From contig CALLVX010000072.1 in the NCBI GenBank assembly GCA_938010765.1, positions 1-64,000 of the forward strand: a stretch of DNA of 64,000 nucleotides, read 5' to 3'. Below the pieces are notes generated by a model that did no database searches, was not told where the DNA came from, and saw nothing but the letters and a program-made list of their open reading frames with translations. Positions within the stretch are counted from its first letter, which is position 1. Each line of letters opens with the position of its first letter. Shown here in pieces: positions 32,376 to 40,159 of the stretch. The translations under genes were made by a program, and so were the position numbers. Source of the DNA: an uncultured Flavobacteriaceae bacterium (lineage in GTDB: Bacteria; Bacteroidota; Bacteroidia; Flavobacteriales; Flavobacteriaceae).

Positions 32376-32400
32376 CTGAACTGTCGCGTCCTAAAATACG

Positions 32401-32570
32401 GCTACAGATTAATACTTGTTTTTAAGCGGCGTATTGGTGCACGTAATTGGGTGTTCTGAAAGGGCACGTATTATGCTATTTAAAGGCTTTGCAGAAAAAC
32501 AATTTAAAAAATTTAGCCAGTTCTGTTTTAGGAAGCCTAAAGTCTTATTGTTATATAGCTTGTTGTATTC
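32401..32570. repeat. candidate cassette-boundary element downstream of the 32576-33160 gene
   Basis: Minus strand GAATACAACAAGCTATATAACAATA... resembles the element start at 37028 (GCCACAACAACGATGCTATAAGCAATAGC); contains AGGCTT..AAGCCT pairing; other end GCTACAG. Confidence 0.35.
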
Positions 32571-32575
32571 TATTT

Positions 32576-33160
32576 TTACTTATTCTTTTCTCCTAGTTTT
32601 TCAATTTTCATTAACCATTTTTCACGAAATTCTTCTTTTGAAAGTCGCAAAGGTCCGATTGATGTTATTTTAACAGATTTTACACCGATAAAATTCATTG
32701 TTAGTTTCTTCATCGCGGTATGAGATGGACTTCTATTTATCAATCTATAATACCAGGTTGGTTGGTCCATTGTGCAAATCAACCGAGCTGTTTTTCCTGT
32801 AAAATGTTTATCCCACCAGACAGAGTCTTCTCTTTTTTCGAAAGCAAAACCAGGCAAAAAAACTCTATCCAAAAAACCTTTCATAATTGCCGGTACCGAA
32901 CCCCACCAGACGGGATAGACCCAAACGATATGTTCGGCCCATTTTAATTTTTCTTGGGCATCTACTAAGTCGGGTTCGAGTTCAGTTCGTTTTCTGTATC
33001 CAAATTGAAGATTAGGATTGAAGTTTAGTGCTCTAATGCTAATTTCTTTTATTTCGGCATTCGACTTTTCAGCACCTTTCTTATAAGCATCTGAAAGTCC
33101 AAAGTTGAAACTCTCTTTGTCAGGATGTCCATTTATGATGAGAACTTTGTTTTTATTCAT
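32576..33160 (-). CDS. NAD(P)H-dependent oxidoreductase (flavodoxin-like / KefF-like)
   Basis: VLIINGHPDKESFN, HIVWVYPVWWGSVPAIMKGFLDRVFLPGFAF. Confidence 0.9.
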   Translation of the reverse strand: MNKNKVLIINGHPDKESFNFGLSDAYKKGAEKSNAEIKEISIRALNFNPNLQFGYRKRTELEPDLVDAQEKLKWAEHIVWVYPVWWGSVPAIMKGFLDRVFLPGFAFEKREDSVWWDKHFTGKTARLICTMDQPTWYYRLINRSPSHTAMKKLTMNFIGVKSVKITSIGPLRLSKEEFREKWLMKIEKLGEKNK

Positions 33161-33193
33161 ATGTTTTATCCAATGTTATGACCTAACGGTCTC

Positions 33194-35082
33194 GTAGTCG
33201 AGTGGACAAGGGGAATTTCACCCCAAGCCTCTCACAGAACCGTACGTGATAGTCTCCCATCATACGGCTCTTGTTATACAAATCTACATTAACGTTTTCA
33301 CTTTGTATATCCCATTTTCCAATGGTGGAATAGATTAGGAAACTGTTCCTGAATTCTAAAGAACCATTTGTAAGCACGTTTTATACTGGTTTTATAACGT
33401 TTATACCTTTTTCTTGCCCATTTCACTAAACGATTGTTCAATAGTTTGAAGACTCCGTGGAGCATAGACTTCCTGAATTTCCCATAGTAGTTTACCCACC
33501 CCCTAATCATTGGATTAAGAATTTTGGCAATGCCTACGATACTATTAGAAGTCATTCTATGCACTTTAAGTTCTGCTAACTTAGCCGCAGTGCGCTTTTT
33601 CGAACTTATACTAATGCTACAATCGAAACCGAGAAATAGCCCGCTTCGCTTTTTAGATTTGGAAGTTCTAGGTTGAAAAGAATAGCCTAGAAAATCAAAC
33701 TTGACGTTGTGGTAATTTCCTTTTCTTCAATAATCCTTGCAGTGCACAATTTTGGTTTTCCTTGGATGTAGTTCCAAACCTATTTGTGTCATTCTGTTTT
33801 GGATAGCTATCAGCGTTTGTTCTACATGTTTTTGACTTTTACAGTTTACGATAACATCGTCGACATAACGTGTGTAACTTACTGTTCTGTCAGTCTGTTC
33901 TAACCATCTGTCAAACTCGTAATGCAGAAAGAGATTCGCTAATAGGGGGCTTATAACACCACCCTGCGGAGTTCCTTTTCCTTGTTTTACGATTAACTTC
34001 CCAGATTTGGTCATTACTGGACATGCCAGCCAACGTGCTATATAGAGTCTGACCCATTTTTCGGGTACATGCCTCTCTATAGCGAGCATCAATTTGTGGT
34101 GGTCAATGTTATCAAAGAACCCTTTAATGTCCTGATCGATCACCCAGTCTGTTTTCCAGCAGTTTTTCCTGACCTGTTCAAGTGCTTGATGCGCACTCTT
34201 TTTAGGTCTATAACCAAATGAATTTTGACTGAATTCTTTTTCTAAACGAGGTTCTAGGTAGATATTGACCACCATTTGCCCAATTCGGTCACTTATAGTA
34301 GGTATTCCCAGTTTTCGGACTTTTCCGTCCTTTTTGGGAATTTCCACTTCTTTGACCGGAGGGGGAAAATAGCTTCCCGATGCCATACGATTCCAAAGCT
34401 TATACAGGTTTCCAGATAGGTCGGTATCGAATTGTTCGATACTGACCAAGTCTATGCCTGCGCTTCCTTTGTTGGCTCGCACTCTCTTATAAGCTTGCCA
34501 TATGATGGCTTTGCCTATAGGTATTGATTTTGTTTCATTCCATAAAGTCATCCTCAAATAGTGAGTTGTTAAATGGAATGCAACTGTATAACCTAACCCC
34601 TTTGCTCCATTCCCATTACAGAGACTTCAACGCTACTACGGGTTAGTCCGTCCCTGAAAATAACATTGGTATTCTACCTCTAGGTTGATCCTATTGTGTA
34701 TTTCCCTTAGCATTTATAGTCAGGTTCCCGAGTTCCGTAACTAAGCCTAGATAAAATTCATGCCCCCTGAATGACGCCTGTCGCATAGCCAATAAATAGG
34801 TGGTCGCTATACTGTTTAACTCCGTATCATACTTCGTAGCTTTTGACAGGGTGTACCTACTTCTCGACACCTCAAAAGGGGTTCACTTTCGTTCATCTCT
34901 TTTATCCATACCCGACTAATTCTTGATTAGTCGTTTCCCAAACGCTCAATACCATTGCTCTTTACAACAACACCTTTAGGTGGTTTAACGCCCTCTCCTA
35001 TAAAACGACGTTGGTGGGTGGGTTCCACCATCTTAATTACAGTTCACAACGAATATTGCCGTTCGTTGCTTGCTCGGCACAC
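33194..35082 (-). mobile_element. group II intron (3' end well supported, 5' end tentative)
   Basis: Domain V-like GAGCCGTATGATGGGAGACTATCACGTACGGTTC and domain VI to ...CGACTAC on the minus strand; domain I-like GATGAACGAAAGTGAACC upstream of the RT ORF; best GUGYG 5' end is GTGTGCCG at 35082. Confidence 0.7.
33298..34557 (-). pseudogene. ltrA: group II intron reverse transcriptase/maturase with one in-frame TGA
   Basis: RT motifs (GKGTPQGGVISPLLANLFLHYEFD, YTRYVDDVIV) then TGA at 33727-33729; same frame stays open (RKGNYHNVKFDFLGYSFQPR...) into the maturase domain RGWVNYYGKF. Confidence 0.88.
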
Positions 35083-35202
35083 TATGAATAGTAGCGGATT
35101 ATGTAGCACGAACCTTTCCGTTTAGAACCGACTGTAAATATAAAAAAGCGACTTCGATTAAAAACTGAAACCGCTATTATTTTTTAGCATTGTTGTAGCA
35201 CG
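35083..35202. repeat. candidate cassette-boundary element, part upstream of the intron insertion (remainder at 33174-33193)
   Basis: Minus strand CGTGCTACAACAATGCTAAAAAATAATAGCGG... matches the start of the element at 36902-37028; across the intron it ends ACCGTTAGGTCATAAC. Confidence 0.45.
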
Positions 35203-35241
35203 TTTTTTTTAAAATCACAGTAATACTTTTTAATTCCAATA

Positions 35242-35979
35242 CTATAAGGCTTTCCCTAAAATCAAGGTTGCACTACTTAATGCTTTATCTCTTATTGGAT
35301 ACAATTCCAACATTCTTGGGTCGGATGCCATTTTTTGAACACCATCCATATTGTCAAAGTAGAAGAGGTGAACTTTACTTGGCTTTTCTAAATTTCCTTT
35401 AACCAAAGTTGGAATTAAGAATTTTTCAAAATGAGCTCCAAACTCAGGCATAATTGTGCAAGACTTACTTAAATATTCTTCAAAGTTATCTTTGTGATGC
35501 TGACCTTCATTATAAGTCAAAAGAGTTATTGCATAGAATTTTGAATTATCACCTATTTCTTGAGGTACAATAGATTGAGCATCTATGGAAATAATTACAA
35601 TCATACTATCTAAAGCAGGAGTTCTATAAGATTCTACTAGATTAACATAATCAACATCTTTTCCTGTAGCTTGAAAATGTTCTTCATTTTCAAATATTCC
35701 AAAATGTATTTCATCAGGTAAAGCCATATTACCTTTTACCAGTTTGATAGGTTTAATTACTTTATCTACTGAGCCATTATTTTTTTCGAAAATTTCTCCA
35801 ACTTTCGATTTATATTCTTCAAACTTTTCACGACCGTCTTTTTTTAAATAATATAAAGCTGTTACATACACCTTTTCATTATTTGTTTGATTTGTTGTTT
35901 CAACCATTTTCTTATTTTGTTTATTAGTACAGGAAGAAAAGAGTATTCCTATTAAAAGTGAATAGATTAAATATTTCAT
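35242..35979 (-). CDS. lipoprotein with two tandem related domains (DUF1330/dimeric alpha-beta barrel-like)
   Basis: Lipobox FSSC; two repeats ending VKGNMALPDEIHFGIFENEEHFQ and VKGNLEKPSKVHLFYFDNMDGVQ. Confidence 0.65.
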   Translation of the reverse strand: MKYLIYSLLIGILFSSCTNKQNKKMVETTNQTNNEKVYVTALYYLKKDGREKFEEYKSKVGEIFEKNNGSVDKVIKPIKLVKGNMALPDEIHFGIFENEEHFQATGKDVDYVNLVESYRTPALDSMIVIISIDAQSIVPQEIGDNSKFYAITLLTYNEGQHHKDNFEEYLSKSCTIMPEFGAHFEKFLIPTLVKGNLEKPSKVHLFYFDNMDGVQKMASDPRMLELYPIRDKALSSATLILGKAL

Positions 35980-36039
35980 TTGTTTTTATACAAATTTAAA
36001 ACACTTCGTAGAGGTGAAAACGTCAATTTATGTCAATAT

Positions 36040-36873
36040 TCAGCCATTTTGACTCAAACGATAATTAGATGGTGTTTGCTTAAACTGAAGTTTGAAAAGC
36101 CGATTAAATGACCTTACGGATTCAAAACCACAATTAAAAGCAATCTCATTAATCTGTAATTCACTAGACTTTAATAACGTTACAGATTTTTCTAATTTTT
36201 TCATTTTAATGTAGTGTGATGGATTGTCTTGATAAAGTTCTTTAAACTTCCGGTTGAAAGTAGCAAGACTTACATTACATAAAGTTGCTAATTCATTTAG
36301 GGTTAAAGAAGAAATGCAATTATGTTCTATGATTTGCATAAAGTTGTATTGCTGTGGAGAAAAAAGAGCAGAGATGAAATTATCAAAATCATCTGATTCA
36401 CTAGACTGAAAAAGTAAGAGTATTAATTCCTTTATTTTTAACAATTGAATATCTTCATTAAATACTTGAATATTGTTGAGATAATAGATAAGACTGTCTT
36501 TATATTGTTCTAAACCTTCATCTATTTGTATTTTGAGAATAATTTTCTGATTGGATTTAACAGGATTGATAGAAAATAATTTTGCTATTATTGAGGGATG
36601 AAAATATACTGCAACCGCTTCTACAATTTCAGCAGATGCATCATCTTGATGAATATCTTCGAGAAAGTATTCACCACATTTTGATAGAAATCCTTCATTT
36701 CTTGATATTAATATTGACGCAATAGGAGTACGTACTTCCAACTTTCCCTGCAGTATAAACATATAACAAGCTTCATCAGAAAGTATTTTTTCAAATCGGC
36801 CTTCATTTTTTATGATGATTTTTTCGAAAACCTTTTTTCCTTCAAGTTCTATATAGCTATAATCTAATATCAA
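36040..36873 (-). CDS. AraC family transcriptional regulator
   Basis: LTLNELATLCNVSLATFNRKFKELYQDNPSHYIKMKKLEK and INEIAFNCGFESVRSFNRLFKLQFKQTPSNYR. Confidence 0.9.
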   Translation of the reverse strand: MILDYSYIELEGKKVFEKIIIKNEGRFEKILSDEACYMFILQGKLEVRTPIASILISRNEGFLSKCGEYFLEDIHQDDASAEIVEAVAVYFHPSIIAKLFSINPVKSNQKIILKIQIDEGLEQYKDSLIYYLNNIQVFNEDIQLLKIKELILLLFQSSESDDFDNFISALFSPQQYNFMQIIEHNCISSLTLNELATLCNVSLATFNRKFKELYQDNPSHYIKMKKLEKSVTLLKSSELQINEIAFNCGFESVRSFNRLFKLQFKQTPSNYRLSQNG

Positions 36874-36901
36874 TTGTTATTTTTTGTGCTGGATTCAATC
36901 T

Positions 36902-37028
36902 GCTACAACGGTTTGGGCATGAGCAGTAGCTCTCCCCCAATGATGATTTTATTTTAATTGTTTGTTTTTACTTTGACTTTCGTTGTGTTAAGAATTGAAG
37001 CTATTGCTTATAGCATCGTTGTTGTGGC
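36902..37028. repeat. candidate cassette-boundary element (attC-like architecture)
   Basis: 127 bp bounded by GCTACAAC (36902) and GTTGTGGC (37021-37028); internal GAGCTACTGCTC and GCTATAAGCAATAGC hairpins. Confidence 0.45.
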
Positions 37029-37433
37029 TGGTTTTTTTCTATTAATTCTTAATACAACTTTTCCAATTATAAATGTAATTATTGCTAACATTAGAGCATA
37101 AATACCCCCTGTAATTAATGAGAAATTTCTACCAACATCACTTACTACTTTCTGCATTGCAACCTCCTGTCCAGGCGTAATTTCATTTCCGCTAAAGAAC
37201 CCGTCCTGATTTAAGTCATAGCTATTAAGTTCGATTTGATAATAAATTGTGAGAAATGCTGACAACCCAACTTTTAAAAGATAGAAAGAAAAAAAAACAG
37301 TCACGCTGATCCAGAACCATCTTCTTTTGTTTTCTTGAAACAACACTTTTCTCCTTATTCCAATAATCACTAGCAATATCAAAGAAATAAAACATGGTAT
37401 TATTAGATGATATGGAATATTTACTGTGTTCAT
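37008..37433 (-). CDS. hypothetical membrane protein
   Basis: 141 aa with several hydrophobic stretches; C-terminal KPATTTML is encoded by the adjoining boundary element. Confidence 0.6.
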   Translation of the reverse strand: MNTVNIPYHLIIPCFISLILLVIIGIRRKVLFQENKRRWFWISVTVFFSFYLLKVGLSAFLTIYYQIELNSYDLNQDGFFSGNEITPGQEVAMQKVVSDVGRNFSLITGGIYALMLAIITFIIGKVVLRINRKKPATTTML

Positions 37434-37528
37434 TATTTAATTAGCCACAACAATTGAACAAACGCACCTAGGTACGTTTACGTCTATTTAATAAAAACCA
37501 TAGCATCCAAAAAAAAGCGACGAATATG

Positions 37529-40159
37529 CTACGACAAACTAGCCAAACTTTTCTCCAAGGTCTCGATCTTGGCTTCCGCGTCCGCTTGTTTTTTACGTTC
37601 TAGGGCGATTACCTTTTCAGGGGCGTTCTGCACAAAACGTTCGTTGCTCAGTTTCTTTTGAACCGATTGTAAAAAGCCCTTTGTATACTTCAGCTCTTCC
37701 TGTATTTTTTCCAACTCGGCGGCCACATCTATTGTACCGCTGATCGGGATAAAATATTCATTACTCTTTACCCGAAAGCTTAAGGCCCCATCTATAGGGG
37801 CATCAACATAAGAGATTTCAGATACATTGGTGAGTTTGCCAATGACCGTATCCCAAGTGGTCGCTGCTTTTTCTTCGTTTAAGACCGATACCGAAATGGC
37901 ATCTTTCATAGCGATCTGCTTTTCCTTGCGAATGGTACGGATACCAGTAATGACACCATCTGCAAAGTCAAAGCCGGCGATCAAATCATTATTGACCTCA
38001 CCCATTGCAGGCCATTGAGAAACGATCAAGGCTTCTTCGCGCGTGCGCTCGCTCATATGCTGCCAAACCTCTTCACTTAAGAAGGGCATAAACGGGTGCA
38101 ACAGTTTTAGGTTCTCTTCGAACAACTGCACTACGGCCTCTAAGGTAAACTGATCAATGGGTTGTTGGTAGGCGGGTTTTACAATTTCTAACAACCACGA
38201 ACAGAAGTCGTCCCATACCAATTTGTAGATGGCCATTAGGGCATCGGAGATTCGGTATTTACTAAAGTGGTCTTCGATCTCGGCCAAGGTTTGGTTAAAT
38301 TTCGAACGGTACCACTCGATTCCCAATTGTGCCGCTTCAGGTTGCGGCAGATCGGCAACCTCCCAGCCTTTTACCAAACGAAAGGCGTTCCAAATCTTGT
38401 TCGCAAAATTCTTGCCCTGCTGGCATAGGTCTTCATCGAACATAAGGTCGTTCCCAGCGGCAGCACTTAATAAAAGCCCTACGCGCACACCATCGGCCCC
38501 GTACTCCTCGATCAATTTAAGCGCATCGGGCGAATTACCCAATTGCTTCGACATTTTTCGCCGCTGCTTATCGCGTACCAAGCCCGTAAAATACACATTC
38601 TCAAACGGTCGCTTGTCTCGATATTCGTAGCCAGAAATAATCATACGGGCCACCCAGAAAAAGATGATATCTGGCCCGGTCACCAGATCATTGGTCGGAT
38701 AATAGTAGTTCACCTCCTCATTACCCGGCTCCAAAATACCACCAAAAACGCTGATAGGCCATAACCAAGAGGAAAACCAGGTATCGAGCACATCTTCGTC
38801 TTGGCGAAGATCCGCTGCCGTAAGACTTACATTCTGCGACTTGGCCTTTGCGGCAGTCAAGGCTTCTTCCTTGCTTTCGGCCACAACGAAATCATTTTGC
38901 CCATCACCAAAGTAGTAGGCCGGTATTTGCTGGCCCCACCATAGCTGGCGCGATATATTCCAATCGCGAATATTTTCCATCCAGTGGCGGTAGGTATTTT
39001 CAAACTTTTTAGGGAAAAACTTCACCTCTTCGGTTTCCAAGACTGCCGCAATGGCAGGTTTTACCAAATCTTCCATCTTAAGGAACCATTGATCGCTCAA
39101 ACGCGGTTCAATAACCGCCTTGGTACGTTCGGAAGTCCCTACCTTGTTCAGGTGCTGCTCTGTCTTCACCAAAAAGCCCTGTTCCTCCAACTCCTTAGAT
39201 ATGGCCTTGCGAACTGCAAAACGATCTTGCCCTTCATAATGCAATCCGTATGAATTCAAGGTAGCGTTGGCATTAAAAATGTCTATTACTTCCAAATCGT
39301 GTTTTTCGCCCAATGCCTTGTCATTGATATCATGGGCGGGGGTTACCTTTAGACAACCGGTACCGAACTCCACATCTACATAATCGTCCTCAATAATAGG
39401 GATAGCACGGTTACAAATAGGTACAATGGCCCTTTTGCCCGTTAAATGACGGTAACGCTCATCATTGGGGTTGATACAGATAGCAGTATCGCCCAAAATG
39501 GTCTCGGGGCGCGTGGTCGCTATCGTAACGGTCTCGTTCGAATCTTCGATTTTATAGGCCAAATAGTATAAAAGGCCTTGTTTTTCCTCATATATCACCT
39601 CCTCATCAGACAAGGTAGTCAATGCCTCAGGATCCCAATTCACCATTCGATAACCCCGATAGATAAGTCCTTTATTGAACAGATCAACAAATACTTTGAT
39701 GACCGAGGCATACATATCATCGTCTAAAGTGAACTTGGTACGGTCCCAATCACAGGAACAACCCAATTTCTTCAACTGCTCCAAAATAACGCCCCCGTAC
39801 TCATCTGTCCAATCCCACGCATGTTTGAGGAAGGCTTCCCGTGTTAAATCTGCCTTTTCAATCCCTTCAGATTTTAATTTGGCCACTACTTTTGCTTCAG
39901 TGGCAATCGAGGCATGATCCATTCCCGGTACCCAACAGGCATTTTTACCCATTAAACGGGCCCTTCGTATCAATACATCTTGAATAGTATTGTTCAACAT
40001 ATGCCCCATATGTAGTATTCCAGTTACATTTGGAGGCGGAATTACAATAGAATATGCCTCTTTTTCATTCGGGGTAGAATGAAAATACTTGTGCTGCATC
40101 CAGTATGCGTACCAGTGGTTCTCGACTTTCTGGGACTCATATTTCGAAGGGATTTCCAT
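37529..40159 (-). CDS. valS: valyl-tRNA synthetase
   Basis: PPPNVTGILHMGHMLNNTIQD (HIGH), RKMSKQLGNSPD (KMSKS), 876 aa. Confidence 0.97.
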   Translation of the reverse strand: MEIPSKYESQKVENHWYAYWMQHKYFHSTPNEKEAYSIVIPPPNVTGILHMGHMLNNTIQDVLIRRARLMGKNACWVPGMDHASIATEAKVVAKLKSEGIEKADLTREAFLKHAWDWTDEYGGVILEQLKKLGCSCDWDRTKFTLDDDMYASVIKVFVDLFNKGLIYRGYRMVNWDPEALTTLSDEEVIYEEKQGLLYYLAYKIEDSNETVTIATTRPETILGDTAICINPNDERYRHLTGKRAIVPICNRAIPIIEDDYVDVEFGTGCLKVTPAHDINDKALGEKHDLEVIDIFNANATLNSYGLHYEGQDRFAVRKAISKELEEQGFLVKTEQHLNKVGTSERTKAVIEPRLSDQWFLKMEDLVKPAIAAVLETEEVKFFPKKFENTYRHWMENIRDWNISRQLWWGQQIPAYYFGDGQNDFVVAESKEEALTAAKAKSQNVSLTAADLRQDEDVLDTWFSSWLWPISVFGGILEPGNEEVNYYYPTNDLVTGPDIIFFWVARMIISGYEYRDKRPFENVYFTGLVRDKQRRKMSKQLGNSPDALKLIEEYGADGVRVGLLLSAAAGNDLMFDEDLCQQGKNFANKIWNAFRLVKGWEVADLPQPEAAQLGIEWYRSKFNQTLAEIEDHFSKYRISDALMAIYKLVWDDFCSWLLEIVKPAYQQPIDQFTLEAVVQLFEENLKLLHPFMPFLSEEVWQHMSERTREEALIVSQWPAMGEVNNDLIAGFDFADGVITGIRTIRKEKQIAMKDAISVSVLNEEKAATTWDTVIGKLTNVSEISYVDAPIDGALSFRVKSNEYFIPISGTIDVAAELEKIQEELKYTKGFLQSVQKKLSNERFVQNAPEKVIALERKKQADAEAKIETLEKSLASLS

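Follow-up and report, generated by a model that had tools for sequence, protein, structure and literature searches.

Behind valS, on the minus strand of the first 64,000 nucleotides of contig CALLVX010000072.1 (uncultured Flavobacteriaceae bacterium, assembly GCA_938010765.1; this whole 64-kb stretch is called here the window), lies a short row of genes separated by hairpin-forming elements. A sequence-only reading had described it as an AT-rich, cassette-like array with related inverted boundary elements and no visible integrase. We consider it very probable that this region is a small array of gene cassettes of a Bacteroidota-type, integron-like system, set on an attI-like start site after valS; in other words a short, integrase-less outpost of a widespread gene-capture system which in its working resembles the integron. 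The order of the locus can be read with the same high confidence as attI-like site, cassette 1, site, cassette 2, a site split by an intron, and a damaged cassette 3 (Table 1).

Table 1. Features of the cassette locus downstream of valS (R'', L'', L' and R' are the boxes of an element hairpin; RT, reverse transcriptase; aa, amino acids)
Feature	Positions	Strand	Support
valS, chromosomal gene adjoining the platform	37529..40159	minus	synteny in relatives
attI-like site: palindrome AAACGTACCTAGGTGCGTTT (37479-37460) and GTTCAATT, then boundary GTT at 37451	37452..37479	minus	layout shared with sites behind array recombinases in about 30 loci
Cassette 1 gene: 141-aa protein, predicted membrane segments	37008..37433	minus	
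attC-like element 1 (R'' GCCACAAC ... CCGTTGTAGC R')	36898..37032	minus	covariance model R1 30.4 bits, E 3e-5; composite pattern match
Cassette 2 gene a: AraC-family regulator (HTH_18, ExsA_N)	36040..36873	minus	domain matches
Cassette 2 gene b: 245-aa lipoprotein-like, DUF1330-related	35242..35979	minus	27.3 bits, cut-off 23
attC-like element 2, upstream part (R'' GCTACAAC, L'', most of L')	35083..35203	minus	covariance model R1 33 bits, E 7.6e-6
Group II intron in the L' arm of element 2 (5' GTGTG at 35082, 3' CTCGAC at 33197)	33197..35082	minus	Rfam RF01999 1.8e-18, RF00029 4.7e-11
Intron RT gene, one in-frame stop at 33727-33729	33298..34557	minus	RVT_1 1.9e-38
attC-like element 2, downstream part: TACGAGACC, then GTTAGGTCAT (R' opening cassette 3)	33176..33196	minus	
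Cassette 3 gene: Flavodoxin_2 family NAD(P)H oxidoreductase	32576..33160	minus	6.9e-38
R''-like remnant GAATACAACA, end of cassette 3 not intact	32561..32573	minus	no model match, tag mismatch

The minus-strand motifs on which the sequence-only reading relied stand where it had placed them: GTTGTGGC at 37451-37444, GCCACAAC at 37028-37021, GTTGTAGC at 36909-36902, GCTACAAC at 35199-35192 and GTTAGGTCAT from 33187. The AT-richness is likewise borne out, cassettes 1, 2 and 3 having a GC content of 31%, 29% and 35% against 40% for the whole window. On the other hand the inverse ends had been paired within one element, and we find that the matching ends belong to one cassette. Cassette 1 starts with GTTGTGGCTAAT (37451, minus strand) and ends with the inverse of GTTGTGGCTGGT (37032-37021); cassette 2 starts with GTTGTAGCAGAT (36909) and ends with the inverse of GTTGTAGCACGT (35203-35192), so that in both intact cassettes of the window these terminal sequences, which include the 7-nt tags discussed below, match over at least 9 nt. 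The tag in the upstream part of element 2, GTTGTAGCA, is that of the start of cassette 2. Two features had been overlooked: the palindromic attI-like site before 37451, which lies 50-77 nt downstream of the valS stop, and the 1.9-kb group II intron that splits element 2, leaving its halves 2 kb apart.

A short single-motif search (GCYACAACAA...) of the own genome did no better than its control, and Rfam recognised in the window the group II intron only, with nothing for the elements. As the single motif was uninformative, composite patterns and a covariance model were used. The composite pattern retrieved such an element in four other genomes of the family, where the neighbourhoods are long same-strand arrays, one of which (L044) fills a 20-kb contig. 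The covariance model, trained on 29 elements from these four genomes and on none from the window, gave exactly two matches in the 64 kb, both on the minus strand, at 35203-35039 (E 7.6e-6) and 37032-36898 (E 3e-5), these E-values being rough. Two of the three boundary elements first proposed are thus real; the third, near 32568, has no model match, its tag GTTGTATTC differs from the start GTTAGGTCA of its cassette, and no closing tag of cassette 3 was found within 5 kb downstream.

Besides the window genome, the model has matches (E at most 0.01) in 107 of 121 Flavobacteriaceae genomes, often more than 20 per genome and in one-strand arrays that reach about 70 kb behind a tyrosine recombinase, in line with the earlier suspicion of a variant cassette system common in flavobacteria; none was found in the twelve genomes of one genus of the family (g128). 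Under a stricter limit, 74 of 297 genomes across the phylum were matched, other classes included. The hairpin arms R''/R' and L''/L' covary, to a degree that none of 500 shuffles reaches, with 93% of cells paired. The bottom strand folds better than shuffled sequence, with a mean z of -3.9 for 60 elements compared to -0.3 for cassette bodies.

The most telling regularity concerns the tags. In 23 loci holding 261 elements and 238 units, both GTT boxes could be placed in 209 units, and this placement was made without use of the tags. The 7 nt following GTT at the start of a cassette recur as an inverted copy at its end in 165 of these 209 cassettes, and the match extends to at least 5 of 7 in 203, when shuffling yields 2.5 perfect matches on average and 8 at most. 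Perfect agreement of the two boxes within one element, that is, between neighbouring cassettes, occurs in 5 instances only, and 111 distinct tags were counted. The matching ends therefore belong to one unit and not to one element, which is the arrangement expected of integron cassettes; since the tags match within a cassette, we place the boundary within GTT, where integrons also have it. The base adjoining the tag is an A in the opening box in all 209 cases, where the partner box requires a G in 206, and this makes a fixed mismatch. The units measure 0.65 kb between elements and the elements 143 bp (medians). As the cassette reading had anticipated, the elements sit between unrelated genes in one orientation: 251 open reading frames (ORFs) of at least 80 aa lie on the element strand and 6 on the opposite one. 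A change by a whole unit, of the kind it had proposed to look for, is seen in one relative (L041), where the same 531-bp cassette is present twice and identity stops inside ACCGTTGTA on both sides.

The arrays are linked to a tyrosine recombinase. Among the 20 best matches not previously retrieved in 200 genomes, ranked by recombinase score alone and taken with their flanks, all 14 loci with at least 0.8 kb downstream have elements directly behind the gene on the same strand; the remaining six stop at a contig end within 0.6 kb. Two other arrays are divergent from the recombinase (L109, L110), and the same layout is found in Algibacter onchidii, Zunongwangia mangrovi DSM 24499, Seonamhaeicola aphaedonensis and Winogradskyella ursingii. 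A linked recombinase, which the sequence-only reading had proposed to look for, thus exists for the arrays; for the window genome it is on another contig, C35 (from 18313), followed by two elements, and no recombinase is present within the window. A cassette of this C35 array (L095:9443-11660, tag GTTGGGCGTA) encodes a DUF4435 protein together with an AAA_15 ATPase; the two may form a defence pair. We also noticed, 20-220 nt upstream of the recombinase and divergent from it, a treble-clef-like protein of about 125 aa (motif C..C...GR.DKKFC, weak DUF2116 match; e.g. L095:5810-6217), present in 22 of 82 recombinase loci by strict motif and in several more by eye, which is a possible partner or regulator of the recombinase.

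The array recombinase is closest to XerA, its nearest solved structures by sequence and fold being 5hxy and 4a8e. Between its KGxKDR and HxLRH motifs lie 58-59 residues in Flavobacteriaceae and 57-63 in the wider Bacteroidota set; viral relatives mostly have 53, XerC/D 62-66 and IntI 100-101. This short spacing means that the IntI-specific insertion is missing, and the alignment with IntI4 is broken at the insertion. In 201 genomes every recombinase stays below the TIGR02249 cut-off; the integron integrase hidden Markov model matches every tyrosine recombinase weakly, none above cut-off, and served for ranking only. In the tree the IntI sequences, of which only three were included, group in a separate branch (99) that excludes the array recombinases, deep support being modest. 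Of the reference sequences used (IntI1, IntI4, XerC and XerD of E. coli), IntI1 proved identical to plasmid records (100%), and parts of IntI4 and XerD agree with PDB alignments. Most array recombinases carry an N-terminal extension of about 100 residues, and the predicted structure of one of them, that of Seonamhaeicola aphaedonensis (L179; mean predicted local distance difference test score, pLDDT, 84), shows there an extra beta-rich domain of about 72 residues.

On the 3' side of the recombinase stop, arrays begin with a palindrome and a few bases, then GTT and the tag of the first cassette. In most of 37 loci this tag shows no mismatch, the distance to the stop being usually 27-130 nt. The inverted-repeat scores of the site mostly range over 7-12, where random sequence has a mean of 3.3. 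The window carries the same motif after valS, AAACGTACCTAGGTGCGTTTGTTCAATT followed by GTT. Comparison with relatives, also suggested at the outset, shows that in three congeneric genomes the homology downstream of valS ends at this same GTT and that differing DNA follows; in G306 and G304 the motif is at the same place, with different sequence beyond GTT. In the congener G303 the recombinase is followed by AATAAACGTAATATTACGTTTAGCCAATT and GTT, of the same sequence type as the valS site. As the valS motif matches the start sites of arrays, we regard it as an attI-like site without its recombinase. The main-lineage recombinases of the congeners G303, G306 and G018 contain stop codons, which fits with decay. 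No empty site was found among the congeners, whose valS neighbourhoods are too diverged.

The intron RT is read as two ORFs in the same frame, 33727-34557 and 33298-33564, split by the in-frame stop. Relatives of the intron with readable ends occur in eight other genomes; most of them start after ..YATA or a similar end of an L' arm, and 8-9 nt separate their 3' end from CGTT, with element-model matches around several of them. One end of the L314 copy and one of the L315 copy do not fit. From these junctions the intron family appears to target the elements, in L' and in gene orientation. When the intron is left out, L' of element 2 pairs incompletely with its L'', and the two halves may derive from different sites.

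Units, GTT boundaries, tags, covarying hairpins, recombinase linkage and start site are established at the level of sequence, and from them we infer how the system would work. Cassettes would be excised as circles by the linked recombinase, which at this locus may act in trans or may since have been lost, and they would be inserted at attI through exchange inside GTT, a single folded strand serving as substrate. The tag would let a circular cassette fold a complete site with a fully paired R box, the neighbours of an array being mismatched. Because neighbouring tags differ, the R box of a folded array site would pair mainly at AAC/GTT, compared to about 10 bp in the circle, and this fuller pairing would make circles better substrates than array sites. 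The intron, for its part, may use the hairpin as a landing site.

Could the same layout be produced by known means? If the array were a canonical CALIN, a cluster of integron cassettes that lacks an integrase and is mobilised by ordinary IntI, it would equally display R''-L''-L'-R' hairpins, one-stranded single-gene cassettes, a GTT boundary and an attI near the recombinase. We find this very improbable: only 7.5% of R' boxes (19/253) fit GTTRRRY and 6.1% of R'' (14/231) fit RYYYAAC, and the recombinases differ from IntI by their profile scores, motif spacing and place in the tree. Canonical IntI as the mover is rejected for its insertion, missing here, and for its place in the tree. Hardly any credence can be given to dispersed intergenic repeats or terminators, resembling repetitive extragenic palindromes (REP) or miniature inverted-repeat transposable elements (MITE), that would merely lie between genes. 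Certainly the elements are palindromic, intergenic and multicopy, and single isolated copies exist on contigs C36, C76 and C138 of the own genome, but cassette-wise tag pairing, recombinase linkage, a defined array start and a duplicated whole gene unit with element-bounded ends are unexpected for repeats. A Xer-like system, working by two-strand exchange on double-stranded sites with no folded single strands, would accord with the XerA-like enzyme and with the clean palindrome of attI, which suits a double-strand site bound by a dimer. We hold it unlikely: partner sites carry different 7-nt tags, so that the overlap identity normally needed for two-strand exchange is missing; the hairpin arms covary; and the tag copies are inverted, so that direct exchange between them would invert rather than excise.

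It is a different matter whether the valS cassettes are a dead relic, their recombinase lost and exchange ended, a reading compatible with the identity proposed here and to which we give a little less than an even chance. The window without recombinase, the stops in the recombinases of the congeners, the broken intron RT and the degenerate cassette 3 speak for it; the different DNA that three congeners have after the same GTT, and the intactness of cassettes 1 and 2 in both tag copies, speak against. As to the cassette-array interpretation itself, several observations weigh against it. The window holds just two scorable sites, cassette 3 violates the tag rule, and element 1 by itself folds only weakly (z -1.2). 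The closing tag of the first unit of G304 was not found. The recombinase of C35 belongs to a sub-lineage with an attI sequence unlike that after valS, and may for this reason not serve the valS site, in a genome assembly that is 87% complete. Finally, recombination itself is deduced from sequence.

Predicted phage contigs of IMG/VR (L229-L308, e.g. L276:1626-6750) bear arrays of the same element type beside a short (about 265 aa) relative of the recombinase. The model has 172 matches there, none of them on the recombinase strand. The small ORFs of L276 (50-115 aa) are directed contrary to the polarity of the elements, and the tag rule on these contigs gives 25 of 49 perfect matches and 36 of 49 at 6 or more of 7. 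The named phages Ingeline and Freya have recombinase homologs, and no convincing array was found in them. An Acinetobacter indicus plasmid (L346, NZ_CP041297.1 18376-27071; 4043-6300) combines a truncated array-type recombinase, the palindrome ATATACGCCATTTGGCGTATAGCCACTT followed by GTTATGTGCC, tet(X3) and a cut-off R''/L''-like sequence; tet(X3) looks like a captured cassette, with a tag match of only 4 of 7. We are slightly inclined to believe that a second integron lineage, of independent origin, exists in Bacteroidota and their phages, with a XerA-type recombinase without the IntI domain and a private 7-nt tag pairing only in the circle, of which clusters of recombinase-associated acquired interbacterial defence (rAID), phage micro-cassette arrays and the Acinetobacter tet(X3) context would be branches. 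If so, circle-only tag pairing could favour capture over loss, and most Flavobacteriaceae genomes would hold a cassette-capture system missed by standard searches, with arrays of tens of kilobases of accessory genes, in a phylum where integrons are treated as nearly absent. Several questions would become approachable: the need for the extra domain of IntI in folded-site recombination, the origin of cassettes, each having its two ends marked by a private tag, and a possible departure of resistance genes, tet(X3) among them, from Bacteroidota in the form of cassettes.

The IntegronFinder 2.0 survey of 2022 found in Bacteroidetes only In0 (integrases without attC) and one Salinibacter integron (PMC9024848). 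With a different recombinase and different recombination sites, the present system would be passed over by standard integron surveys, and some array recombinases may have been counted there as In0. Our literature search found no description of it, preprints and subscription papers being largely outside its coverage, so that the system is apparently undescribed and priority is not certain. With the integron it shares a recombinase gene, a primary site, one-stranded arrays of single-gene cassettes that can be large, four-box hairpins and the GTT boundary. It differs by a recombinase without the IntI-specific insertion and often with an extra N-terminal domain, by an R box of about 12 nt which, in place of GTTRRRY, contains an invariant A/C mismatch and a tag of 7 nt proper to each cassette, by a palindromic attI, and by a recombinase mostly co-directional with the array. 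The one-orientation array starting at attI beside a recombinase is seen in relatives and on contig C35, the recombinase being absent at the window locus. The system thus works like an integron but, without the IntI domain and GTTRRRY, is not a canonical one. By the definition of CALIN (at least 2 attC within 4 kb, no neighbouring integrase), the window has two sites 1.7 kb apart and no recombinase, but these sites are not attC by consensus.

The intron invites comparison with the group IIC-attC introns, also a group II family landing in the hairpin of a cassette site. The insertion point of the IIC-attC introns is TTGT/T in R'', on the bottom strand and against the direction of the genes (PMC7923331), whereas the present ones enter the L' arm (..YATA, then GTGTG), 8-9 nt before GTT and in gene orientation. 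XerA and XerC/D offer the closest structures, but the enzyme is associated here with cassette arrays and not with dif resolution.

Among described systems the rAID cluster of Bacteroidales, reportedly first described by Ross et al. in 2019, comes nearest. Its defining features are a tyrosine recombinase, short genes that share one orientation, and intergenic motifs that are conserved (PMC12247911). The layout is the same as in relatives of the window genome and on C35, with the same kind of tyrosine recombinase: that of a Parabacteroides distasonis plasmid is 50.6% identical over residues 120-375, and the tag rule is readable on this plasmid (TTACCGAT / ATCGGTAA). On P. distasonis plasmid 2 (L350, 5686-12774) the related recombinase is followed by immunity genes of the type VI secretion system (T6SS) with hairpin intergenics of about 60 bp, and tags matched there by eye (TTATCAACC, TTACCGAT, TTACCCACGTA) link rAID clusters to the same cassette rule. 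The sites are of about 60 bp on the P. distasonis plasmid and about 143 bp here, and T6SS immunity cargo there is opposed to a general cargo here: the window cassettes hold no orphan T6SS immunity genes, but a membrane protein for which no Pfam family was found, an AraC regulator, a DUF1330-like lipoprotein and a flavodoxin-like oxidoreductase.

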